Shown: positions 2,886 through 44,426 of the stretch, in pieces
Position numbering within the stretch: the stretch's first letter is position 1
How the letters are laid out: each line of letters opens with the position of its first letter
Assembly (NCBI GenBank): GCA_022925895.1
Contig: JAKSYS010000397.1
Span: 1-56,885 of the forward strand
Length of the DNA stretch: 56,885 bases
From: Fragilaria crotonensis
Lineage: Eukaryota > Bacillariophyta > Fragilariophyceae > Fragilariales > Fragilariaceae
Direction of reading: 5' to 3'
Program-made: the position numbers and the translations under genes
The notes under the pieces: model-generated
What the model was told of the DNA's origin: nothing
The model's database searches: none
The model's input: only the letters and a program-made list of their open reading frames with translations

Positions 2886-4907
2886 TCAAGTACTGCACTG
2901 TGCTGGAAGGCTACTAAAGGATAGCGAAGTCTGCGAAGGCAATACAATCCATTCAACTCTGAGTCTTTTCGCTGAAGCAGCTGCAGCTTCTCGTTCAGTC
3001 CTTTCTTTCAAAACCTGGTCGCTCTTTTCCGGCAGTTGCCCACAAAGCTTTTGGAGATCTTCCAGCCATCCCAGTTCAACGGCCAGGTCAAGTAGGACTT
3101 CGTCAACATCGCCTTGAGCAAAGAAATCTCGTTTGGATTGCTCCGAATAATCAATGCCAAGTTGGTAGCCAACAGGCTCACGATTCACAACCACACGCAT
3201 AGCGGTGCGAGGACAGCAGTACACCAAACTATTTGCCGGGGCCACTGCCAATGACGTACCAACGACAATCAAAAGGTCAATACCTGGAAGATCTTCACGG
3301 ACACAGCGGAAGAATTCACCAGGTAGCGAGGAGCGAAATAGGACGATGGATGGCTTCATGGCTTCGTAGCCGCAGAGCTGGCAGGCAATGGGCGTTGAAG
3401 ATATGGGCGCTTTTTGGTCTTTCCCAGTCAAGTCTTTAATGTTCTTTTCTACAAGAGTGCAAAAACCCTGAAAGTCAGACTTTGTCTTGCAAAGGGCACA
3501 CTCCGCTTCATCCATTGAACCATGCACCATGACAACCTTTTCACGCGGTAAGTTTGTGCACTGGCCTTCGAGGCCATCAATGTTCTGTTGATACAGGCGA
3601 GTTAACTTTCCCGTCTTGATGTGCAGCAGTTCCACAAAGCGATGCGCCAAAGTCGCCTTCCACAATTTATCTCGGGTCCCGAGTATAAATGGTCGATTGA
3701 GTTCCAGACAGGGAAGTGGGTTCTGTAGGAAGAGGTTCATATCTAACGCAAACGTCGGGTCTGCACGGATGGCTTCGCGCTCTTCCAAAGAGGCGGTCAG
3801 CAGGCCCGGTCGGAGCGTATCGTACAAACCACCAGCGGATCGAAAATCAGGAATACCACTGGCCACGGACATGCCCGCACCTGCAAGGATGGCAATGGAC
3901 TGGCATTCATCAGAAAGAATAAACCGAGCGACATCGGATAATGACCGCGGAGGTCGGTCAAAGGGATACACACGCTCGTCCTCATCGCCAAAGATTGAGG
4001 CGATAATTCGACGAACGCCTTGCTCAGAGCGAGTATCGTCCTGACTTGATTCGGGGTTTGAGTCCTCATCAGACGATGATTCATCTGAACCGTCGACGCC
4101 TTCCTCATTAGTTTGCGGCGCTTCTCGACAATTCAATGCCTTAAGCTTCTCTGTCAATTCATCCACAAGAGGATCGTTAAGATACGCCTGACATGCATGG
4201 CACCAGACTGATAATTCCTGAAGATTGGCAGCAATGCAGTGGCCAGCCTTGTCGTCACCAGGATCAGACTCCAAAGTGACTTGGTAGTGCGCCAAACCGT
4301 GTGCCTTGTCGTCGGGCGAACAAAAAACAACTCCGCATTGCAAACACAACCAATTCTGTGCGGTATCTTCATTGCTCTCGACAGAATGAACACTATCATC
4401 TGACTTCGGGATACATTCAGTGCAAGAGATATTCGTAGATGTTGGCAACTGTTCGTGTTGGAGGAGAATATGGCTCCGGACATGCGGACAGTGTGAAATT
4501 GGTACATTGGGACAGCATTTGGATTCTTCCCCGGGATGGCCTTCTAATTTATCAGCAAGCACCAGATCCTCCTGTTTTGCAAACAAGTCGCTTGATTCTT
4601 GCGCGTGCCCGCCAGTATGAACGTTTGCCGGCCGCTCCTCGTCACCATTACCGGCATCTTCACGTAGCATTGCCTCTGCCAGTAGAGGGCGATTACTGTG
4701 ACTATTTCCGTTGGTAGCGACATCTGAAATATCTTGGTTCGCTACGTGCTCTAGCTCATCACCATTGGCAACACGACGATCTGGCGGACCTGATGGAGGG
4801 GAGGAAACGCCATCTTGCGAGGACATCAGGTCAGCAAGTAAAGTGCTATCATCAACAGGATTTGACGAAGCACGAAGATTCATGCAATGATGAGGAGCAT
4901 GCGCCAA
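2886..4907 (-). CDS. ZnF-UBP domain fused to a Sir2 NAD-dependent deacylase
   Basis: 673 residues. A disordered acidic N-terminus (1-135) is followed by a ZnF-UBP/BUZ domain at about 138-245 (HCPHVRSHILL; NWLCLQCGVVFC; HGLAHY; LSVWCHACQAYL), an acidic linker (265-300) and a class I-like Sir2 core at about 325-610. The core shows the NAD-binding GAGMSVASGIPDFRS (343-357), QNIDGLE (441-447), catalytic His in MVHGS (462), zinc ligands CALC (470/473) and CQLC (509/512), and VVGTSLAVAP. Sirtuins remove acyl groups from lysines using NAD. ZnF-UBP domains, as in HDAC6, USP5 and BRAP, usually bind the free C-terminus of ubiquitin. Joining both echoes HDAC6, an unrelated deacetylase with a BUZ. The Arg expected after the third Cys pair (CSRY in the neighbour) is replaced (CSPDD). 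An alternative start is Met9. Confidence 0.93.
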   Translation of the reverse strand: MAHAPHHCMNLRASSNPVDDSTLLADLMSSQDGVSSPPSGPPDRRVANGDELEHVANQDISDVATNGNSHSNRPLLAEAMLREDAGNGDEERPANVHTGGHAQESSDLFAKQEDLVLADKLEGHPGEESKCCPNVPISHCPHVRSHILLQHEQLPTSTNISCTECIPKSDDSVHSVESNEDTAQNWLCLQCGVVFCSPDDKAHGLAHYQVTLESDPGDDKAGHCIAANLQELSVWCHACQAYLNDPLVDELTEKLKALNCREAPQTNEEGVDGSDESSSDEDSNPESSQDDTRSEQGVRRIIASIFGDEDERVYPFDRPPRSLSDVARFILSDECQSIAILAGAGMSVASGIPDFRSAGGLYDTLRPGLLTASLEEREAIRADPTFALDMNLFLQNPLPCLELNRPFILGTRDKLWKATLAHRFVELLHIKTGKLTRLYQQNIDGLEGQCTNLPREKVVMVHGSMDEAECALCKTKSDFQGFCTLVEKNIKDLTGKDQKAPISSTPIACQLCGYEAMKPSIVLFRSSLPGEFFRCVREDLPGIDLLIVVGTSLAVAPANSLVYCCPRTAMRVVVNREPVGYQLGIDYSEQSKRDFFAQGDVDEVLLDLAVELGWLEDLQKLCGQLPEKSDQVLKERTEREAAAASAKRLRVEWIVLPSQTSLSFSSLPAQCST

Positions 4908-5290
4908 TCAGAATCCGCTGAAACGTCAGCATTTTCGAGCGTTTCACGTCAGAAATTCACAAATGTGCCAGTGCCAGTAGTCTCCTGTTCTGTCCTACCA
5001 AAATTGCTTTGACTGTCAACCCTCTACTCCAGTATGCATTGTAGCGACGTTAGGGATCTTACTGAGATCTATGCAAGGCAAGTTTGGATTACTAGTATTG
5101 GAGAACTCCAGTAATGTGTAAAAGATCCAGGAATACAGAGTGACGCTTTAGAGCTTGCTCGCAGGACTGTAATCTAGATTATCGAAGGGAAATGTGCGAC
5201 CTCATCAGTGTCGAGCAATGGTGTACTGGAGCATAGTAGCATGGAGAATACTGCACCCTCCGATCAGACAAAAGCAGTTGCAACATCATG
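4908..5290. other. intergenic between the two ZnF-UBP genes
   Basis: 383 bp with no coding signal. It must hold the promoter of the sirtuin fusion and the 3' end of the UBA/ZnF-UBP gene, which run in the same direction. Confidence 0.5.
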
Positions 5291-6052
5291 CTATACTTCG
5301 TCCGCAAACTTAAGCTCTTCTAGCTTCCTCACCAGCCCTTGCACAACTGGGTCCTCGAGATAAGCCTGACAGGCATGGCACCAAACTGATAAATCGGCCA
5401 AACTAACGCCCACACAATGGCCTGCGTGATCTTCTCCAGGATCACATTCCAAGGTGTCCTTATAATGGGCAATGCCATGACCATTCACATAACGTGAACA
5501 TCGCACAACTCCACATTGCAAACAAATCCAATTTTCACGCGACGGACAAGAACCATCGTCATCGACATCGGATTTGGCGAATCCAGTCCCTTGCTTGGGT
5601 GCGACATGACTACATGTGGCGTGATGAGGCGATGCCAGTTTGTCAGGACTCAGGAGAACATGGTGCTGAACGTGTGGGCAGTCGGATATCGGAACCACTG
5701 GCCCTCCTTGGTCCTGGGCCAGATCACCATCCAAGATGTAATTATAGGCAGCTGTCACGTCAGGACCGACCGCCTCAACGGCGTCTTGAGCGACGTGCGG
5801 AGGAAAGCCAAACACATTTTCAAGAGTATCAATGACTTTCACAACGTCTGCTATTGTCGCAGTTTCGTACGAGACGGCGTGTGCTGACGACCCAGCCGCG
5901 ACCGTAGTCGTTGCTGCAGCGGATGCTGCTAATGATTGATGATCCATGTTGGCAGATGCGCTCGTGACTTGGTCATCCCTCGCTTGCGACGATGGAGAAG
6001 CTTGTTCGTCCATGGGCGGCATGGCGGATCGGTGGATGGAGTTTTGTGTCAT
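5291..6052 (-). CDS. UBA plus ZnF-UBP ubiquitin-binding protein
   Basis: 253 residues. A low-complexity Ala/Ser-rich N-terminus precedes a UBA-like helical segment (about 68-110: VKVIDTLENVFGFPPHVAQD and AAYNYILDGD) and a complete ZnF-UBP domain (about 124-232). The domain has DCPHVQHHVLLS, NWICLQCGVVRCSRYVNGH, AHYKDTLECDPGEDHAGHC and LSVWCHACQAYLEDP. The CSRY Arg and the W/Y pocket residues needed to hold the ubiquitin Gly-Gly tail are present. No catalytic domain is seen, so it is probably a ubiquitin receptor or adaptor. Its ZnF is clearly the closest relative in view of the one in the adjacent sirtuin gene, including identical LSVWCHACQAYL, pointing to local duplication. Start chosen at the first Met; Met11, Met14 and Met36 are alternatives. 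Confidence 0.9.
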   Translation of the reverse strand: MTQNSIHRSAMPPMDEQASPSSQARDDQVTSASANMDHQSLAASAAATTTVAAGSSAHAVSYETATIADVVKVIDTLENVFGFPPHVAQDAVEAVGPDVTAAYNYILDGDLAQDQGGPVVPISDCPHVQHHVLLSPDKLASPHHATCSHVAPKQGTGFAKSDVDDDGSCPSRENWICLQCGVVRCSRYVNGHGIAHYKDTLECDPGEDHAGHCVGVSLADLSVWCHACQAYLEDPVVQGLVRKLEELKFADEV

Positions 6053-6198
6053 CAGATGTGTGTTCCGTTGGAGATCTACAAGTACCGGTACCAGGTACTA
6101 TACTCCGTAGAACTACGTACGACAGTACTCGTGCACTATATTAACGGTCATTCGTATCATGAACATCCTCATTTTGACAGACTTGCACAGTGGTACTC

Positions 6199-31879: not shown

Positions 31880-33102
31880 ATGTTGATTGTCACAATCCCC
31901 AATTTAATTCATATTCTGCGTTCAGACTTGGAGTTGCAGAAAATAGTCCGATCAATGCTTCATTGGTGATATTGATGGCACCCTTGGATTGTATGTACTA
32001 AGCTTACTCATAGACTAGTACACAAATCAATGTGCCTCAATCCCAAAGAACAGGTCCTGGGTGCCAAATTCCTCTGTAGATGCAAAATGTGAGGGCTGAA
32101 ATGGAGATGCAAAAAATGCTACTGTCAGGAATTATGAAGATTTTTGGTCGTACTGACGGCAGCCATTGATTGCAATGGATATGCAAACTGATTGACTAGT
32201 GGGCAATTCAATGAGCAATTTGCAACTATAGCACATTTGATGCTTTCCACTTAAATGGATGATATTCAGTAGGCAGACAGTGAGATAAAACAAAATTGTA
32301 CTGGTGTGGGTTGCTTGGAGTGCATTGATTGTATTGCTTGATGGCATCCTTAGAAGTGCTTCACTTTCCAAGCTCATTGACTTCTTGAACAAGATTCAAT
32401 GCATGATCCCAGAATGCAATAAAAATACTACGCAGAAATTCTTGTTTTGGAAATGATAAACTAGCTGTCATGATGGTTTTTAAGTGTGTATTGGGTGTAT
32501 TGACAGCACCCTTTGATTGTCAGTACTATCCATGCCCATCAACACTTGTTGAATTCAATGCACAAATCAACACTTTGGGTGTGGGATCCTAGTTAAACAG
32601 GTGCAAAATCTGTGGTCAACCTGGGAATTGGAAAGTTTTGGTCAATATTTGTTGAGTTTTTATTGGTTGTGGTATTGATGAATTGATGACACCCATTGAT
32701 GGTAACTGACTTCTGGTAAACTCAGTGCACAAGCAAATCCACACTTGTTTACTTGGTGTAGGATCCGTGCTCAAATGCAAAAACTGCGGTCAGCTATGGG
32801 CATGGAGAAATTATTCTGCCATTGTTTGCTGTATTTTCTTCAGTTGTTTTGTTGACCCTTCTTGATTCTAACAACTTTCACTACAACTGACTGTTGCGCA
32901 AGCAAGTATGCAAAACCCCGGAGTTCACAACTTTTGCAGATTGGGGGTTCCCACTTCAATTCATATTCTGTGGTCAGACTTGGAGATGCGGAAGATGGTC
33001 CTGCCAAAGTCTCTTTCAGTTGCATTGGTGATAATCATGACACCCTTGAATTTTTCGTAGTGAGCTTACTTTTTGGTTGAATCACAAGGCGATGCACAGC
33101 CA
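31880..33102. repeat. diverged copies of the foldback repeat units
   Basis: This stretch has no gene but repeatedly shows pieces of the arm units that follow: TGATATTGATGGCACCCTTG, GTGAGGGCTG-A-TGGAGATGCA, and GACGGCAGCC-TTGATTG with ATTGACTAGTG-GCAATTCA. They are older and more diverged than the arms at 33103-34930. Confidence 0.6.
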
Positions 33103-34930
33103 AGCCCCAAATAAACAGGGTGCAGGATCCCCATTGCAATGAAAAATCTGAGGGCTGCATTGGAGATGCAGAACAAATCTTCTGTCAAGGATTGTTGAGG
33201 GTGTATCAGAAATGTTTTTGACAACCTAGGATTTTTGTAGTGAGCTTACTTATTGGTTGAAAGGCAAGTTAGTGCACAAGCCCCAAATATACAGGGTGCA
33301 GGGTCCCCATTGTAATGAAAAATCTGAGGGCTGCATTGGAGATGCAGAACAAATCTTCTGTCAAGGATTGTTAAGGGTGTATCAGAAATGTTTTTGACAC
33401 CCTAGGTTTTTTTTGTAGTGAGCTTACTTATTGGTTGAAAGACAAGTTAGTGCACAAGCCCCAAATATACAGGGTGCGGGGACCCCTTTGTAATGCAAAA
33501 TCTGAGGGCTGAATTAAAGATGCAGAAAAAATGTTCTGCCAGAGTTTGTCAAGTTTGCATTGATGATACCGACGGCATCCTTTGATTGGAGTGGGTATAT
33601 ATACCCATTGACTAGTGTGCAATTCAGTGGGTAATTTGCCAGAATTGCCGATACAGGGTTTTTTGATTAATGAATATTCTGCAGTCAGACATTAATATTC
33701 CGCAGAATTGTACTGATGTATTTTGTTGAGTGTGTATGGATTGTATTGATGGCATCCTGAGATCCTTTCAACCTTTTTTGCTCATTGACTTCTTGAAGAT
33801 TCAATTATGATGCCAAAATGTGAACAAAAAAATACACAATAATGATCAATACTCAATCAATTTTGGATTTTTAAAAAATCAAAAACTGGCATTTACTCCA
33901 TCATCAAATGCCTGAGACTCATTGGCTGAAGCTCCCGCAACAATATTCGCTTTGGGAGTTTGTGTTGGTGTTAGCGACATAAGTTAACGTGAAATTAAGG
34001 ATGCGATCACATGTTAGCTACTAGTGTTGTAGTTATACAAATCAGAAGTACTTTATGTTCTGAGCTTGTCAGTTGCACTATAACAACCCTGGCATTGACT
34101 TTCGTTGCTGGAGCTTCTGTAAATGAGTCTCAGGCATTTGATGATGGAGTAAATGCCAGTTTTTGATTTTTTTTAAATCCAAAATTGATTGAGTATTGAT
34201 CATTATTGTGTAATTTTTGGTTCGCATTTTGGCATCATAATTGAATCTTCAAGAAGTCAATGAGCAAAAAGGTTGAAAGGATCTCAGGATGCCATCAATA
34301 ATCCATACACACTCAACAAAATACATCAGTACAATTCTGCGGAATATTGTGTCTGACTGCAGAATATTCATTAAAAAAACCCTGTATCGGCAATTCTGGC
34401 AAATTACCCACTGAATTGCACACTAGTCAATGGGTATATATACCCACTCCAATCAAAGGATGCCGTCGGTATCATCAATGCAAACTTGACAAACTCTGGC
34501 AGAACATTTTTCTGCATCTTTAATTCAGCCCTCAGATTTTGCATTACAAAGGGTCCCGCACCCTGTATATTTGGGGCTTGTGCACTAACTTGTCTTTCAA
34601 CCAATAAGTAAGCTCACTACAAAAAACCTAGGGTGTCAAAAACATTTCTGATACACCCTTAACAATCCTTGACAGAAGATTTGTTCTGCATCTCAATGCA
34701 GCCCTCAGATTTTGCATTACAATGGGGACCCTGCACCCTGTATATTTGGGGCTTGTGCACTGACTTGCCTTTCAACCAATAAGTAAGCTCACTACAAAAA
34801 TCCTAGGTTGTCAAAAACATTTCTGATACACCCTCAACAATCCTTGACAGAAGATTTGTTCTGCATCTCCAATGCAGCCCTCAGATTTTTCATTGCAATG
34901 GGGACCCTGCACCCTGAATATTTGGGGCTT
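33103..34930. mobile_element. foldback structure: ~830 bp inverted arms around a ~160 bp loop
   Basis: The left arm (33103-33942) is repeated as near-identical reverse complement in the right arm (34104-34930). Each arm holds two to three direct units of about 180 bp (for example GTAGTGAGCTTACTTATTGG with CAAGCCCCAAATATACAGGG, seen at 33236 and 33416). The inner ends read GGCATTTACTCCATCATCAA on the left and its complement on the right. The 161 bp spacer codes for nothing obvious. Long inverted arms made of tandem subrepeats are the hallmark of foldback-type elements; no transposase is present. Confidence 0.85.
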
Positions 34931-35500
34931 TTGCATTGACTATCATACTAGCTAGTCAGCATTGAATAAAGGGATACAAAAATCCATGGGTGGAACAGTG
35001 AGAAAACCTTTAAGAATTATATTTTGCATCTCTAACTCAGACTTCAGATTATGCACGAACGCAACGTGTAGGAAAAAGACTGTGTACCGGTTACTGGTGT
35101 ACTGAAATCGCTGAACACCGGTAGTAGACTACGGCACTACGGTAGTACACCAAGTACAATCATGATTACGATTTGCCAACAACTGAGTAAATTGATTTGA
35201 CTTTACAACAATAAAAAATTGTACAAAAACCAGGACCATTTTGTAGTAGTAACTCAGAAGCCCTGATGGCATTAGATGTATTGCTACTACTAGCTACTAG
35301 TATGCAAAGTTTAGTACCTAGTACTACATAGATAGGATGGGGGATCAGGAAGAGCACTGCCAAGTTCTAGTTTACCTGCTGCTACCGTAATGATTTTACT
35401 GTACTTCCATCAAATACATTTAGCTGCTGTTTTTCTCTGTCTGCCAAAGCCAAGATATCTTCATCAGCAATCATGTCGACTCCACCAGTCAGATTCCGCA
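34931..35500. other. intergenic, no gene recognised
   Basis: GTAC/TAGTAC-rich DNA between the foldback arm and the hAT relic. Confidence 0.45.
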
Positions 35501-36684: not shown

Positions 36685-36870
36685 GACAACGGGTAGAATG
36701 GGTAATGGGTGGGTATGGGTACGACCTAGTGGGCGTGGGTGGGTAATGGGTGGTCCGAGCTCGACCGTGCGAAGAGTGGGTGGGTCATGGGTGGTCCAAG
36801 CCTGCGTACCGGCTCCCTTGGGTACCCATGGGCACAGGCGTCATACCCAGTGCAGGACTCTGCTGTACAC
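36685..36870. repeat. G-rich dispersed repeat, copy B
   Basis: GGGTAATGGGTGGGTATGGG units followed by GGGTGGGTCATGGGTGGTCC and, at 36842-36866, the inverted form of the tag seen in copy A at 31567. Copy B ends about 20 bp before the Mutator-like element. Confidence 0.75.
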
Positions 36871-36888
36871 ACATTGTAATTATAAATA

Positions 36889-37367
36889 GGGGAAATTACA
36901 ATATCACGCATTTTTTTGCCACTTTTCAATATAGTACAATGACTTACTATCCACAAATTCGTATTTTACTATATACTACATTTACAATTGTATTTTACAA
37001 TATCACGCATTTTGAAAAGAGACATTTACAATATCACGCATTGTTTTGCCCCTTTTTACTATATCGCTTTTGTCGCCTGCCATGCCCGACCTCCACGGAC
37101 GTCATGGTACACCATCTCGTAACATTCATCAAAGATGGTTCACACTCATCGCTCCACCATGTCGTACATACGCAACGAACATCATCATCACTCACTTCTC
37201 ATCTGTCGTTCGTTTACTAAGCGTCATACTTTGAGTGTGGTCATAATTCTTCTCCCTGCTCTTTTGTTTCAGAACAACAACTCAATCTTCATCTATATGG
37301 TCAACAAAATGGCACCAAATCTGAGATCAACAGTAGTCCCATACACAATCTGCGTCACGGTACTGTA
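36889..37367. repeat. left terminal inverted repeat of the MULE
   Basis: About 479 bp matching 43938-44417 in reverse complement with few differences. TTACAATATCACGCA occurs three times (36896, 36995, 37026), a likely transposase binding site. The spurious ORF starting MVHTHRSTMSYIRN is present in both repeats and is not counted as a gene. Confidence 0.9.
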
Positions 37368-37474
37368 CGACCTATTGAAGCAAATTTCCAATCTTACATA
37401 AACAATGATCTCATCGTGGCATGCTTCATGATGTACCCGTTCTCGTTTCTTCTACTTATTGTCATTGTTACCAA

Positions 37475-39475
37475 CTAGTGCACTAGGACAAGTTCTTCGG
37501 TTGTGCCTCTTCTTCCACAAATGGAACATTTCACAGGAGAATCCTCGCTTTCAATGAACTTACTGCGTTTGCGAATTCGTTTTGTTTTCGGTCGTCCAGA
37601 TTGCCGTTTTGGCACGTTTGGTTCCTTTGTTTCACCATCATATACAGTCGTCTCCAAGCATACAGGAAAACGTTCTTCTTGAAAGTGTTGTGCACGAACT
37701 CAAATGTGTAGAATGGATGGACCAAACTTCTCAGAACATAACTGAATTCCTTTTCCTGCCATTTCCTGAAGACTGCACATGCATGTCGACACGGGTACAG
37801 GAAGTCTTGCCATACCCCAGCTGCTGCACTCCAAGTATGGTTTGACAACAAGGACACGGTCTGGATCTCCATAGGATCGTGCCATCCGTTGCACATTGTC
37901 ATCGCCATTTTCATCAACTATCGATATTGGTTCCACCACCTTGAAGTCACCACACCCCACCTCCAACTCATCGACCGTCATAGACGCAGCGGCATCCACC
38001 TACGTTTTAGAATCTGGGCAACTCTAGGCACCACCTCCGATCCATCTCGTTCAGCATACTTCTTTCGGCAAGCACACACTCTCGTCGTCATTATGTCAAG
38101 AATTTTGTTCACAGCCTCCAGCCATCCAAGATTCCTTGCTTCCGATAACATACTGTTCGCCGACTCGGAAGTGTTCGAAGTTACAATCCCATACCTTGGA
38201 GGCAACTGAGCAGGTGACGGTGACGGTGAATCTGAGTACCACTGAGTACTCTGCCACAGAACACCCGACGCCGTTATGCCTTCCAAATATGTGGCGGCCT
38301 CTGGCTTGACCTTTCGAATCTCATCTAGCAACAGGCTGGCATTTCGTGTTGAGAATGATTTGGCTATTGAACACACAAACTTCGAACACTGCTTTCCATA
38401 CTTCTGCGTTACATTCGCTTCGATGTGTCTAGCACAGCTCATTTCGTACTTATTCGGGAACACCGATTTCAATGCCTCCTTCAGGCCTTTGTCTCTGTCT
38501 GAAATGAAAAGAAACGGCGGCCTAACAACGCCATCCGTGTCAGTGTCGCCATAGCCCTGATCATCAATGATTGGACACGCTTTTTTCAACAATTCAAGCA
38601 TCTTTTTCCACGTTGCTCCATCCTCGTTTCCGGCGGAGATCATAAACCCAATGGGGAAGATGTCATTGCACCCACTGAGAACTGATGCTATGTACAGAGT
38701 TCCCTTGTGTTCGCTCCTCAAATGTGTAGCATCCAACGACACTACTGGTCGAACAAACTTCAGCAACCCATTCATGATACCAGGAAATACATGAAGATCG
38801 ACAAGTCTCTTCTCCTCATCCCTAGTATACCCAATCACAGAACCAGGATTCGTTTTCTTCAAGCCCTCCAAAAATGGGATGACCATTTCGAAGTTTTTCA
38901 CGGAAGCATTTCTCATGCTACTGGTTTGAAAGCGTAGCGCCCTGTACGCTGTCATGTACGAAACGACAACCCCCCGACTTCGTCGCAGCTGTCTTCACAA
39001 CGTCCGCCGGTGTTGGAGCTCCCTTCTTCGTGCGAACTATCTGATCGATAACATCATCAAGCACTGCATTTCGCCTCTTCTTCCACTTTCTCCCATCAGC
39101 TGCCTGTTTAGGTCGGCACACCTCACTGTGCATACCCGTAATCTTTCGGACGCAGAACATACCGTCGGATCGCCGCCTAGATATCAACACACGAAACGGA
39201 CAGTCGACGTGCTCCATACATTGAAATTGTTTGAAACGGTCGCAAATGGAACGTTGCACTCTCAAACGATTACCCGATCTGACCTCATACTTTTCAATAA
39301 ACGGTACCACCTCTTCCAAGGTTGAGAAGCAGTCAACGTTCGCGTCATCAAGGATGTCATACAATACATAATCCTTTGTAGCCACTGAATTTCCCTGCTT
39401 TCTGTCGACTTCCTCTCCTGTCAGGGTGGAAGTGCCGACGCTGTGATCGTGCTTCTCCTTGCCATCGGATTGCAA
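37475..39475 (-). CDS. MULE transposase, interrupted by about four frameshifts
   Basis: Read on the minus strand. The N-terminal MuDR-type region (39475-38930) has FSTLEEVVPFIEKYEV, VDCPFRVLISRRRSDG and GGCRFV. The next frame (from 38945) continues SYMTAYRALRFQ and holds the DDE core: VVSLDATHLRSEHKGTLYIA, NEDGATWKKMLELLKK, FLFISDRDKGLKEAL, the C-x2-H motif in EMSCARHIEANV and the NTSESANSML block. Then come a SWIM-type zinc finger (VWQDFLYPCRHACAVFRKW) and a basic tail with a knuckle (KCSICGRRG). Frame changes lie near 38945, 37985, 37830 and 37655. All expected MULE parts are present in order, so the enzyme would be complete if the shifts are sequence errors. The second Cys of the SWIM C-x-C is not seen in either frame. 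Confidence 0.88.
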
Positions 39476-39569
39476 ACTGTACTCGTCACTGCTGTCGCAG
39501 GTGACGTAGTCATCATCATCATCATCTCCCTCAGCCCTGTCGTCGTCGTCGTCGTCATCGTCGTGATTC

Positions 39570-40497
39570 TCATTCCTCTTCTCTATCCTCGCCTGCGCTC
39601 TGTCTGCTGTTTTTTGCCGATAAAACGTTACTCACCCTGGCAGGACGATCTGCCTCCTCAGCCTGCAACGTTGTCAACACCAGGACAGCAGCACTCACAT
39701 CACTGTCGGAACTGAGCCTTCGTTCCTTCTTTGGTTCTTTATGAATGACCTCCAGCCCAAAACTGTCTAAGATGCTACTTCCGCGCAACTTAGGAAAGCA
39801 ATCACGCACAACCTGACTTGTTGTTCCCAAGTCAGCACCATCCCCAAATACTGTCACCAGCCTACTTCGCAGTTTGGTGACGTCTTGTTGCCGAAACGTT
39901 TCTCTCGTGACATCAATGCCCTCGATGAGGTGTAATACAACACCCACTGCAAACAAGCCGCAGTCAAACCCATTCTTCTGGATGGGACAATCACAATAAT
40001 GCACCCTGCCAATCAGCGCCGCGTCACTTTCCCTTAGGTGTGCATGTTTTCTCGTGTAGAATGAAATTGTGAATGAATAAATTCACAACCTTTACGATGC
40101 AAAGGACATCGGGGTGAACCTGACGTGTGCGGCGTACCAGGAATCATAAAACGTCATGTCATTTACGAACTCCGGCGTTGAGATCGAACAGTCCAGGCAT
40201 AGCACAAAAATGATTTCCCAACACAATCGGGATAAGCAGCCTGTTGAGAGTACGCGGCGATCCAAAACAAGCTTTCATTTGTTGCCGAATACGAGCGACG
40301 TTCCGACTGCGAGCAAGTTTACGTCCTCTCGTCGTCTCGTCTTCCACGAGTTCTGGATTATCATTGATCAAGTCATTACATGAATTGAAGTACTCATAGG
40401 TGCCAAGGCTTCCTATGTGAGATACATTCGTGGAAATTACCTCCTGGGAGGGACAGATCGCTGCAATATACAGTCCAATAACAAAGTGCTCAGCCAA
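39570..40497 (-). CDS. Ulp1/SENP-like (C48) cysteine protease carried by the MULE, frameshifted
   Basis: Minus-strand pieces in order: LNRLLIPIVLGNHFCAM with the catalytic His (first frame, ends 40159), a YDSWYAAHVRF block (about 40150-40110, equivalent to the YDS of Ulp1 proteases), and CPIQKNGFDCGLFAVGVVLH with the oxyanion Gln and catalytic Cys in the frame that starts at 40004. The tail is acidic (AGEDREEE). Ulp1 enzymes cut SUMO or related tags; plant Kaonashi-type MULEs are known to carry such a domain, with unclear purpose. Two frame changes lie at about 40165 and 40050. The next 40 codons toward the transposase are a run of Asp (frame of the transposase), so both may once have been one polyprotein, which is inference. 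Confidence 0.75.
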
Positions 40498-40699
40498 GCA
40501 TTCGTTGACAGCGCAGAAGTGTCATCACTGCTGGGTGATATCCATCCAGAAAAGCGAGGATCTCCCGGAAACGTGCCTCCTTCATGGTATGTTTGTGGTG
40601 ATCACAACACAACTCAAAGACACCCTCAAAAGAGGAAGATGACAACCGATGGTGGCTTGAGAATTCGATGTAAAAGTGGTACTTGTACGCTTCCGTAGC

Positions 40700-41391
40700 A
40701 TTACGTCTAAGTGCAACGCTTAAGTGTTACGTCTAAGTAAAATACCTAAGCCTAGTAAGTGTTATTCATTTCAATTCATTTAAGAACGTGCGTGCGTTTT
40801 GCTATGAAAAAACAAGATTTCTGTAGGGGGTTGGTGTGTACTATATTGCCAAGTCACTATACACTAACCTACATGACTAGAGATAAATATCAAAATTTTG
40901 CTGTCTTTGGCGCGTTTGTTGGCTAATTAGTAGTACTTTCGCGCGCTGGTAGGCTAATTAGTAGTCCATGATTCAAATTCACGCAAATTTCAACGTAAAA
41001 CATGTACTAACCAAAGAATTGCGCGCGGAGTTCTATGTCTTCTCAAGTCAAGTTTACTTCTTCTTCGTCTATCATTCCGAACAATCTTCGCATTCACCTC
41101 TTAACCTGAGGCCACCTCACTACCAGGAGCGCATCATCATTTCCCTGCCATCTAGCCGGGAATGCTTGTTGCGTCGACAGAGTACTTTCTCTCCCTGCCA
41201 TTTAGCTTGGAGCTCTAAGTATTTGGTCACCTTAGTAGAACGAGGTGTCCTTGACGTAGGGTTAGAGTTGTTTCCACTGAAACAAATTCCATCTGCCATC
41301 TAGCCGACGGAGTTCGTTTTGCTGTCAACAAGTTTACTGTACTCTCCCTGCCATTTAGCTGTGAGTGTATAGTATTGGCAAGGCATTTGCC
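40700..41391 (+). promoter_or_regulatory. non-coding leader of ORF3 with repeated CTGCCATYTAGC motif
   Basis: Between the divergent Ulp1 and ORF3 genes inside the MULE. CTGCCATCTAGC or CTGCCATTTAGC occurs four times (41145, 41195, 41293, 41348), the last 33 bp before the ORF3 ATG. GGCTAATTAGTAGT occurs twice (40921 and 40952). Regulatory function is inferred from position only. Confidence 0.4.
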
Positions 41392-43646
41392 ATGTCGGAC
41401 TTGATACCAAACGAAGACAACGAAACGTTGAAGGCGCGATGTCGGACGTCCATTTGTCGGTCAACTATGCTCAACTTTGGAAAGGAAAATCCACGTGTGG
41501 TAGTGGTGGATCCTTCAAGAAAACGGTTAAGTAACAAGATGCCGAAAAAACGCAAGCAGAGGAATTACTTTCCTTCCAGTCCAAAGGTGTTGGCGCTTCT
41601 ACTGAAGTGCTTCCCCTTGAACGGCGGTAATTTCAGTGAAGGTCGGGAATTTGCGACTGCGTTTCGCGATGCAACGAAAACAGGGACGATGAAGGGCGAG
41701 GTCGAGATATGTGGGACACCCTTGCGATGGATAGCGTATGCGCTTGCTTGTTCATTCGGTATCAACAACGATTCGGATCGTAGTACTGCCATCACGCAAT
41801 TGCGGTCTCTGGATGACATGTTCATGAAGCACGGATCATCCTCCGAATTCCTTTCGGAATTCATCCTAATGGATGTCATCTGTAATCGGAGGATTACCCC
41901 GACGGCTGCCGCGGCATTGGGTATAAGTGACTCAAGTTATGGTAACTTGGGTGAAGACGACGTCATTATGGCACCTGCGTCTGAAGAAAAAGACCTGGAT
42001 GATGTCAACGACTTCAAGTACAGGACTCTCCTTGCGTTCCTCCCAGGGGCGGGTGTATTTTACGCTGTAAGGGACTGGCGAAGAAAGTCAGAAGGTGTAG
42101 AAGGTTCCAGGATTGCCATGGACATGAGTTGGTTTCGTCTAAAGACTGGCATGGAGCAGTCGCCGCAGTCGGACTTGCAATTTGGTGGGGATGGTTACGT
42201 TAAAAGGTTTGCCAGCATTACGAGAAAGGGGTCGCCACAGTCTACTTTTGTGTCAGCGTGGAGAGTTGCGTACCATCCCGCCACAATAAATTTTCCGCGT
42301 GAAGTGTTCACGTCAACACAATGCGCGGATCACGAAGGCCCAAGGATGCCACCAGATCTTATCTCTGGCCACGATGTGGGTGCGTGGCCAGTTCTGACCG
42401 AGCTCAGGAATACAACCGCCGCCTTGTCAACTCTAATTCCACAAGGGTGGGTGGTCGTCATTACGCTCCTGGGTGCTTGCATCTTAACATCCCCGATACT
42501 TGCTGGATTGTTGATCCTGGGGAACGCCCATTCGTTGACATCATAGTCGACATTGCACCACCAGTGTCAAGCACAATTGGGAGGAAGTCTGTCATCATGG
42601 TCCGAAGCGTTCTTGACGCATCACTCAAGTCGCGGTATTGTCATCTGAAGCAACAATATGACGTTGTCGGTTGCCTAGACGCAATTGTGGAACACAACTC
42701 ACTTCTGCGTCGGAATGTACCTGTTGGCACGGCGAGACAGAACAAAGGAGATGTTGGGACAATGCATGCCATTGGGACACGAGTGCTCCTTGACGGATCG
42801 GGTACTGTTGGATACGCCGCTAACTATAAGGTGCCGCAAACAGTACTGAAAAGGTTTATTGCGGCGTTCGCAACTATCGGTATGTGCTGTTTTCCCGATG
42901 TGCTGTCTGTTGTTCAACACATGGAAGCCGATTCATCTCTTCCACCCATTGCTCCGATGGGTGAAAATGACTGCAATGGGATCCGGGTGGGCTACACGAT
43001 TGATATGAGCGTTGACCTAGGAAATGCGTCGCATTTCGACGTAAACGACGCGTCGCAGGGCTTTAGTGTGTGGACAGAGGAAATGCCCGGTTGTGCATCA
43101 AACTGGTACTTGATCTTCCCCAATTTGCACGGAAGGAGGCCATGCGGAACGGAGTACAATGGCATTGCCGTCAAGCTTTATCATGGGACAGCCATAAGCT
43201 GGGACGGACGTGCTGTGAGACATTGCACGTCGGTGTCTCGACCGGATGGGCAAGGTACAGCACCAGTACGCTCGGGTTGTTGGAATGGCAACAATCACTT
43301 ATATGGCACCTTCACGGCAGCCAAGGAAAAAGTTGTGGCGGCAGGTCGACGTCGTGCTTCAGGAAGTAGTGCGGCAGCAGATGTTGTCACGAATGTGGCA
43401 CAATCAAATACAGGGCGCCCGAAGAGACTATTCCACGAGGTGAAGGAGAAGGACGACGAAATGAAGAAGATCACCTCTGGATCACATGACCGTGATGACA
43501 GCAATGACGAGGCAGAAACATACATTCGTCGTTGTATTCAGCATGGTTGTCGTTACAACGATGACGACGACGTTGTAATCGCTACTGCAAGAGGGATGCA
43601 GGGGAGGAAGGGATGGCACGTCAATTCCAGTCTGACTTGGAAATGA
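41392..43646 (+). CDS. MULE ORF3: candidate 2-oxoglutarate/Fe-type oxygenase-like protein, one frameshift
   Basis: About 750 residues in two frames. The first (41392 to about 42500) starts MSDLIPNEDNETLKARCRTS, with a basic patch (RKRLSNKMPKKRKQR) and an unrecognised helical domain (FPSSPKVLALLLKCFPLNGG). The second (42321 frame, used from about 42450) has IPDTCWIVDPGERPF and, near its end, HFDVNDASQGFSVWTEEMPG, NWYLIFPNLHG, KLYHGTAISWDGRAVRHCTS and NHLYGTFTAAKEKVV. H238, D240 and H301 of the second frame make an HxD...H arrangement with beta-rich spacing like the double-stranded beta-helix of 2OG/Fe(II) oxygenases; Arg306 could face the co-substrate. That reading is inference. No function is established. 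The C-terminus is acidic and disordered. Confidence 0.6.
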
Positions 43647-43937
43647 CAAGTGACGAAGACTGTCCTAGAGTGCAGGCACGGAGGAGGCAGGCAATGCGTA
43701 ATCGTTTGTTGGGTCTGGATTTGTACAGACCTGACGGCGATAAAGAATGCTGTTCAAAAGATACTGATGACAACGATGAAGACAATTGATGTTGATGTTA
43801 ATGATAACTAACTTGCACATCAAGTGCGAAGTATAATGGTAGCAAAGTGAGTTAACAGCAAAAAGCAGTGAACACACTGGTAAGATAATGGCATGTTGCC
43901 CTTCATGGGCTTCGCTACGTCAGTAGGTTGTTTGTGG

Positions 43938-44417
43938 TACAGTACCGTGACGCAGATTGTGTATGGGACTACTGTTGATCTCAGATTTGGTGCCATTTCG
44001 TTGACCATATAGATGAAGATTGAGTTGTAGTTCTGAAACAAAAGAGCAGAGAGAAGAATTATGACCACACTCAAAGTATGATGCTTAGTAAACGAACGAC
44101 AGATGAGAAGTGAGTGATGATGATGTTCGTTGCGTATGTACGACATGGTGGAGCGATGAGTGTGAACCATCTTTGATGAATGTTACGAGATGGTGTACCA
44201 TGACGTCCGTGGAGGTCGGGCATGGCAGGCGACAAAAGCGCGATATAGTAAAAAGGGGCAAAACAATGCGTGATATTGTAAATGTCTCTTTTCAAAATGC
44301 GTGATATTGTAAAATACAATTGTAAATGTAGTATATAGTAAAATACGAATTTGTGGATAGTAAGTCATTGTACTATATTGAAAAGTGGCAAAAAAATGCG
44401 TGATATTGTAATTTCCC
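43938..44417. repeat. right terminal inverted repeat of the MULE
   Basis: About 480 bp, reverse complement of 36889-37367, ending TGCGTGATATTGTAATTTCC then C. The flanking 9 bp TTATAAATA at 44418-44426 copies 36880-36888. Confidence 0.9.
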
Positions 44418-44426
44418 TTATAAATA

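Follow-up and report, generated by a model that had tools for sequence, protein, structure and literature searches.

A Mutator-like transposon of the diatom Fragilaria crotonensis with a fused Ulp1-transposase gene and a divergent HxD...H gene shared with Plavaka-type elements

Background

What is a gene with an HxD...H motif doing in a Mutator-like element (MULE) of a diatom? The question is raised by a stretch of 56,885 nucleotides from Fragilaria crotonensis (contig JAKSYS010000397.1 of assembly GCA_022925895.1), here called the window, in which a complete MULE fills positions 36889–44417. A preliminary description of this DNA had claimed a recent element with three open reading frames (ORFs), encoding a MULE transposase, a Ulp1 protease and a third, divergently placed HxD...H protein, which we call ORF3. 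Is ORF3 a true part of the element, or does it come from another transposon nested within it or from a captured host gene? And, if it belongs there, what might it do?

Here we investigate the element, its copies and the other locations of ORF3 in the host genome (62.1 Mb in 881 contigs, the window being G000:C334), which is rich in silicon transporter genes (18 of 19 matches pass the family cut-off), as fits a diatom. The reading that we favour, with some reserve and largely by analogy, is of an autonomous-type MULE with a fused Ulp1-transposase and a divergent ORF3 that would act as an oxygenase of the Fe(II)/2-oxoglutarate type on a silencing mark.

Results

The element and its ends

Mutator elements duplicate about 9 bp of their target on insertion, and the element has the duplications of about 9 bp, the long terminal inverted repeats and the MULE-type DDE domain of that superfamily (Table 1). 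The inverted ends, first put at about 480 bp, measure about 483 bp and are 98% complementary, pairing as two arms, one of 312 and one of 187 nt, each of which reaches this value. The flanking duplication described as a perfect 9 bp is so, with TTATAAATA identical at 9/9 positions. Six exact matches to a 17-nt motif, TTACAATATCACGCATT, are present in the window, three in each end, compared with none in 100 shuffles, and the genome has at least 44 matches to the element end, counting the two in the window itself. Because the motif is present three times per end where none is expected, and because the end recurs across the genome, the structure is not the product of chance. The joined flanks of the insertion match 40 places; C450:45067-45200 alone passes the duplication, by 11 bases at 91%, which is too little to identify an empty site. 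The left flank (window 36783-36872) itself belongs to a dispersed repeat, of which the genome has at least 37 more copies of 80–92 nt that are at least 90% alike.

Two genes rather than three

On the minus strand of the window the MULE and Ulp1 regions lie in separate frames, yet in relatives the same region is a single open frame of 1042 (C873), 967 (L019), 997 (L026) or 968 (L027) codons. Ulp1 and MULE are therefore one fused gene, and the element has two genes, not the three ORFs first claimed. The gene begins with the start codon at complement 40583-40585, and its frame in the window is interrupted by short indels, of the copy or of the assembly. It encodes an N-terminal Ulp1 protease, a probable MuDR-type DNA-binding domain (DBD), the MULE DDE core and a SWIM finger, with a possible C-terminal zinc knuckle that is below cut-off. 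The DDE residues and the His, Asp, Gln and Cys blocks of Ulp1 were assigned by eye from the patterns of those families, and are putative.

In the window frames MULE (PF10551), Transposase_mut and Peptidase_C48 are all over their Pfam cut-offs. The Ulp1 protease of the preliminary description thus stands, as does its MULE core. Its SWIM finger is below the cut-off in the window piece and over it in the near-identical copy L001, where all three domains pass (MULE 4.4e-9, SWIM 9.3e-6, Peptidase_C48 4.4e-9). The fused frames of L026 and L027 likewise have Peptidase_C48, MULE PF10551 and Transposase_mut over cut-offs; SWIM is over its cut-off in L027 and under it in L026. The DBD_Tnp_Mut match (E 0.0013–0.0027) is under its cut-off in the window, L001 and L026/L027. 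The ratio of nonsynonymous to synonymous change (dN/dS) is 0.11 for the MULE transposase and 0.17 for Ulp1, at a dS near 2.

Copies and recent movement

The end search of the genome gave 92 candidates, of which 40 were scored and 16 stretches retrieved. Four protein pieces of L001 (MULE, DBD, Ulp1 and ORF3) served as queries for scoring the copies, and their coverage in the window copy is 99%, 94%, 98% and 100%. These four modules occur in identical order and orientation in ten copies (the window, L001-L008 and L011), one of which, L004, ends at a contig edge with 76% of ORF3 covered. The diverged elements L019 and C873 also have the full set. The complete module set is thus present, in one order and orientation and at about 65–100% protein identity, in 12 of the 15 coding copies examined; the other three (L009, L010 and L012) are deletion copies that have lost parts.

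Target duplications were checked in 19 copies, the relatives L019 and L027 included, with small shifts allowed at each end, and both ends were located in 16. The inserted sites have A+T-rich duplications of 9 bp, which are perfect in ten of the 16 (the window, L002, L003, L006, L008, L012-L015 and L027) and agree at 8/9 in three (L001, L005 and L011). The remaining three have none: L009 and L010 are truncated at one end, and the ends of L019 are long and intact despite the absent duplication. Full copies with different 9-bp duplications, suggested in the preliminary description as a check on the element, therefore exist. Four non-coding short derivatives of 0.2–0.8 kb (L013-L016) are built of element ends and resemble miniature inverted-repeat transposable elements. 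Three of these (L013-L015) have perfect 9-bp duplications, and one end of L016 was not located. As L012 and L013-L015 have perfect duplications, the derivatives have moved too.

Near-identical copies are separated by very few substitutions: 16 between the window and L001, three between L006 and L008, and one in 7.5 kb between L005 and L006. This small number indicates very recent movement, as had been claimed. The same pairs differ by 24, 23 and 21 indels respectively, and 20 of the 21 between L005 and L006 are of 1–2 nt. In the window copy, 18 of 22 short gaps are at runs of at least three equal bases, against 23% of all element positions. Since indels far exceed substitutions in near-identical pairs, assembly errors are suspected and the window copy is not called dead; the many gaps of 1–2 nt in its frames may be such errors. 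We considered the window copy as a decayed one and set this aside, because a ratio such as that of L005 to L006 is unlikely to come from biological decay. Given the suspected indel errors of the assembly, an interrupted frame in any other gene of the genome also needs cautious reading.

ORF3 as a constant part of the element

Could ORF3, Ulp1 or both come from a separate transposon nested in the MULE? Plavaka-type elements of this genome also bear ORF3, as described below, and at two of the MULE-linked ORF3 loci, C22 and C40:97719, there are Plavaka-type matches no more than 7 kb away; we took these as neighbouring elements. Yet the sole pairing between the outer ends of the window element consists of weak internal pairs of 20–30 nt, ORF3 keeps its position and orientation in copies that are about 65–100% alike, and Ulp1 is in frame with MULE. 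Nothing marks ORF3 as an insertion, although a nested ORF was named beforehand as the outcome that would count against the element and was looked for. We rejected nesting on the absence of internal ends, the constant position and the Ulp1-MULE fusion, and consider it extremely improbable.

Elements of this kind can also exist without ORF3. Five ORF3 queries found none over 8.5–9 kb around four Ulp1-MULE relatives (L024-L027) with 48–58% MULE identity. One of them, L027, is complete: it spans about 4.35 kb, has inverted ends with GGGGAAATTACAA at the termini, and is flanked by perfect 9-bp TTTAAAAAA duplications. Because a complete Ulp1-MULE lacks ORF3, ORF3 is an addition to the Ulp1-MULE, gained most simply once by one lineage. 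For the same reason the transfer probably went into the MULE lineage.

ORF3 beside other transposases

A genome search with ORF3 gave 531 candidate places, of which 56 were scored, so that all counts here are lower bounds. At least 64 stretches match, which were merged by hand into 44 loci. A MULE and/or Ulp1 match is within 7 kb at 22 of these, although two have Ulp1 only and the MULE match of C873:62763 comes from a neighbouring element. A further 11 have a Plavaka-type transposase and/or an accessory gene, ORFX, within the same distance and no MULE or Ulp1; one of them, C637, has ORFX only and is close to a contig end. A second Plavaka-like transposase is within 7 kb at seven loci (C137, C76, C17, C43, C471, C526 and C405). 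Four loci have no such neighbour, namely C108:111352, C592 and two that are MULE-type by identity (C511 and C482:135621). In all, MULE, Ulp1, Plavaka-type or ORFX matches are within 7 kb at 40/44 loci and a transposase proper at 37/44. ORF3 is a portable module common to the MULE and Plavaka-type elements of this genome.

The clearest Plavaka-type carrier is the C529 element, which has a transposase of 1159 codons (PF18759 Plavaka E 1.1e-7, 31.8 bits, cut-off 26.3), ORF3 and ORFX. It was found in one copy only. Its 24-bp ends start from CATCA (CATCAGAAGG..CCTTCTGATG) and are flanked by a CA/CA duplication of 2 bp, so that it combines the Plavaka domain with the CATCA..TGATG ends and 2–3 bp duplication of the PlavakaB type. 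By eye, the element (L028:2154-9901; L029 = C529:17653-27776) sits inside an apparent non-LTR (long terminal repeat) retrotransposon. At ten of the 44 loci, all without MULE, ORFX is on the 5'-end side of ORF3.

No Pfam family matches the second Plavaka-like protein, which can be aligned with the first across 717 residues (22% identity, E 1e-33). At C137:62500-79400 (L045 and L020) and in C76 (L030 and L046), at least 9.6 kb contain this transposase, ORF3 and another ORF, and the two stretches are 99.3% alike across all of C76 retrieved. An ORF3 relative of 751 codons in C873 (L017:1311-5010), with a near copy in L022, adjoins, on the same strand, a lone Ulp1-like ORF (34% to Ulp1 of the element). 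No transposase belonging to this pair was recognised. These two ORFs are possibly a third type of carrier.

In a maximum likelihood tree of 30 ORF3 rows (23 different), unrooted with an arbitrary root and weak in its deep forks, the 12 MULE-linked rows group together in a single clade (99/99). Seven rows, six of them with the second Plavaka-like transposase, make up the sister group (fork 94/96). The MULE-borne copies of ORF3 thus appear, from their sequences, to trace to one transfer; the unrooted tree does not resolve its direction between Plavaka and MULE.

These loci also bear on whether ORF3 was captured from the host, in the manner of Pack-MULEs, and is passive cargo that does nothing for the element. 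Capture of host genes is frequent in MULEs (PMC2528002), and the candidate places of ORF3 are very many (531). Against this, all but four of the scored loci have a transposon-type match nearby, the coding copies keep the full modules except for the three with deletions, and ORF3 has long open frames and dN/dS values of 0.10–0.30. We regard cargo as improbable. The values are 0.15 (L001/L041), 0.10 (L001/L019), 0.30 (L001/L006) and 0.26 (C873b/L022), the first two being rough because dS is above 1; three more distant pairs were saturated and not used. Judged by these ratios, selection keeps ORF3 about as strongly as the transposase.

The HxD...H site of ORF3

The third, divergent ORF proved to be as first described. 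In L001 (P0001) it has 808 open codons, and relative to this copy a single base is missing from the window near 42394 and another near 43603. Its domain alignment spans 220 residues and 30 rows, of which five with truncated or diverged tails were removed to leave 25 rows, 18 distinct, with near-identical copies still among them. The HxD...H triad is invariant in 25/25 rows, and the only invariant histidines of the domain are that of HxD and one 63 residues later. Counted from window 42720, the three residues of the triad are H105, D107 and H168. The triad is kept in 21/21 rows of a further alignment (A2) also. In a whole-protein alignment the HxD and distal histidines of P0001 are kept in 14/14 long rows and three others in 13/14. 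The domain rows thus have the H-x-D/E...H pattern of a facial triad, and we take the spacing from HxD to the distal His, and its context, to be those of the iron site of Fe(II)/2-oxoglutarate oxygenases. The facial triad of these enzymes is discussed in PMC12730594.

ORF3 could instead be a transposition accessory or a DNA-binding protein and no enzyme, with an HxD...H that binds zinc or is structural. No enzyme family was detected for ORF3, and multi-gene elements are usual in this genome, where Plavaka-type elements bear another accessory gene, ORFX. We nevertheless think this the weaker proposal and rather doubtful, because, of all P0001 histidines, just those at the HxD and distal positions recur in every long row, and because ORF3 accompanies transposases of two unrelated superfamilies, which fits better with an action on the host than with a dedicated component of a single transpososome.

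For an oxygenase, several results have to be set on the other side of the balance, besides the near-identical rows in the domain alignment. ORF3 matches nothing near any cut-off in Pfam, its best value against PHROGs is 0.13, and searches of the PDB by sequence and by profile gave chance-level matches only. No conserved Arg or Lys stands out in the domain alignment about 10 residues past the distal His. A single-sequence AlphaFold model of the window ORF3 domain has a predicted local distance difference test score (pLDDT) of 28.6 and is uninformative on the fold. Tet_JBP (PF12851) has 0 matches in the whole genome to E 10, and no canonical TET/JBP genes were found there. Neither P0001 (to E 10) nor six other ORF3 members (to E 1) match that model. 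CpG observed/expected is 0.99, with no depletion. CpG-context mismatches between copies are 24/50, 20/52 and 15/39 in three pairs but 4/16, 4/24 and 3/14 in others. Such contexts make up 10.8% of positions, a reference value that sets chance too low, since the CG may come from either copy. These counts are at best a hint of methylation. The host genome does have DNA_methylase (PF00145) matches in 13 stretches.

Searches of viral contigs in IMG/VR, of phages and of GTDB genomes found no ORF3. Among the PDB hits, a viral glycoprotein GP1 (0.012, single sequence) and the tubulin polymerization-promoting protein (0.096 and 0.24, profiles) were not meaningful. An NCBIfam ParD model on the tail of ORF3 (E 0.0016, 18.4 bits against a cut-off of 46.2) was dismissed.

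Other features of the window

Table 1. Features of the element in the window
Feature	Position	Strand	Remarks
Left target-site duplication TTATAAATA	36880..36888		9/9 identical to right copy
Left terminal inverted repeat, ~483 bp, starts GGGGAAATTACAATATCACG	36889..37371	+	arms 98% complementary
17-nt motif TTACAATATCACGCATT, three times in left end (36896, 36995, 37026)	36896..37042	+	candidate transposase-binding sites
Ulp1-MULE transposase gene	37452..40585	-	Pfam; 1042-codon open frame in relative C873
Open piece with MULE DDE core	37978..38994	-	PF10551 E 1.6e-9, 38.5 bits (cut-off 27.6)
Open piece with Ulp1 Gln/Cys block	39570..40082	-	PF02902 E 5e-5, 23.7 bits (cut-off 20.7)
Intergenic region, 806 bp, between the two divergent start codons	40586..41391		probable bidirectional promoter, from position only
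ORF3, HxD...H protein	41392..43789	+	divergent from Ulp1-MULE; 799 codons from ATG in L001
His-Phe-Asp (HxD), putative metal site	43032..43040	+	H and D invariant in 25/25 full domain rows (18 distinct)
Distal His within SWDGRxxRHCTS	43221..43223	+	invariant in 25/25 full domain rows (18 distinct)
Right terminal inverted repeat	43934..44417	-	arms 98% complementary
TTACAATATCACGCATT, three times in right end	44265..44411	-	motif count
Right target-site duplication TTATAAATA	44418..44426		9/9 identical to left copy

Two other regions of the window were noted. At 33038-34941 there is a structure of the fold-back type, in which two inverted arrays of a 175–176 bp tandem repeat flank a shorter inverted core; its longest arm pair is 237 nt and 98% complementary. 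At 2886-6097, two adjacent minus-strand ORFs have, by eye, a common zinc-finger block (DCPHV..H, NWxCLQCGVV), and the first of them runs on into an apparent sirtuin domain. An Rfam search of the window gave zero matches.

Discussion

How might such an element work? The transposase would bind the motif that each end contains in three copies, and would then cut and paste the element. Ulp1 would strip SUMO or ubiquitin-like marks from the transposase, from host chromatin or from repair factors. More tentatively, ORF3 might be an oxygenase of the Fe(II)/2-oxoglutarate type that oxidises a silencing mark on the element, most likely methylated DNA and possibly a methylated histone. It would then act like the TET/JBP dioxygenases that some fungal transposons carry, or like the proteins with which plant VANDAL MULEs counter silencing. 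The presence of ORF3 in unrelated transposons suggests a joint tool, perhaps against host silencing.

A broader proposal, which we put forward as a conjecture short of an even chance, is that ORF3 founds a new diatom family of transposon-borne oxygenases, acting on nucleic acid or histone and outside TET/JBP by sequence. This family would move between the Ulp1-MULE and at least two Plavaka-type lineages, stripping silencing marks, and would be a counterpart of the fungal TET transposons that is either independent of them or very ancient. With the SUMO protease, the element described here would make a two-pronged attack on silencing. If this is true, an anti-silencing strategy known from fungi (TET/JBP) and plants (VANDAL) extends to the stramenopiles and to another superfamily, and the ORF3 family, with its many recent copies, becomes a test case for selfish DNA that erases methylation in algae. 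Transformation is possible in some laboratory diatoms.

Comparison with known systems

VANDAL elements encode VANC, an anti-silencing DNA-binding protein that is not known to have an HxD...H site, and are not known to have long inverted ends. Compared by description only, they resemble the window element in being MULEs with an extra gene that may counter their own silencing. Vandal is named in the introduction of PMC12730594.

The closest parallel to the spread of ORF3 is in fungi, where 11 DNA transposon lineages carry TET/JBP dioxygenases that have been transferred between superfamilies, among them Kyakuja, Dileera, Zisupton, Plavaka, EnSpm, hAT, Helitron and others (PMC12730594). All TET+ fungal Plavaka are PlavakaB, with CATCA..TGATG ends (PMC12730594, section 3.2). 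Here too an HxD...H gene is found across unrelated superfamilies in one genome, and its clearest Plavaka carrier has CATCA..TGATG ends. Unlike the fungal proteins, ORF3 does not match the Tet_JBP model, although the PE-type members of the fungal set are themselves nearly undetectable by sequence (PMC12730594). A MULE is among the carriers here and not among the 11 fungal lineages of PMC12730594, the text of which has MuDR twice, in the introduction, and the words diatom and Ulp1 not at all.

Among MULEs, the element shares with the KI-MULEs of Arabidopsis and the ULP1 MULEs of melon and rice the presence of a MULE transposase and Ulp1 (C48) in one element. The KI-MULEs are non-TIR (terminal inverted repeat) elements in which Ulp is reversed relative to mudrA, and other Ulp-bearing MULEs have it in both orientations (PMC2528002). 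The likeness to Kaonashi-type elements drawn in the preliminary description holds for the Ulp1 (C48) domain and ends there, as the inverted repeats are not absent and Ulp is not reversed: the window element has ends of about 483 bp, an N-terminal Ulp1 that shares its frame with the transposase, and a divergent second gene.

Is it, then, an ordinary catalogued Ulp1-MULE whose third ORF is an annotated hypothetical gene? Ulp1 has been described in Mutator elements of hydra, lancelet, Arabidopsis, maize, rice and melon (PMC2836005), and SWIM-bearing diatom MULEs form a listed group (PMC6446971). That group, the MULE-Diatoms (group 37, 2019), shares with the window element its host and the SWIM finger. 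It is set apart, by description, by ends of 123–124 bp and one ORF, with no extra domain listed in the table of PMC6446971. Among the matches listed, the open-licence literature has no such element and no MULE with an HxD...H gene. An ordinary element is therefore unlikely, although this would be compatible with the other readings of ORF3. The preliminary suggestion that the third module marks an undescribed class holds to the extent that no MULE with ORF3 was met there; the module is not private to the element, since Plavaka-type elements carry it. Ulp1-MULEs are known, as are diatom MULEs with one ORF. What appears new is ORF3 as an accessory gene in a Mutator element, which would place this element among the transposons thought to be armed against silencing.

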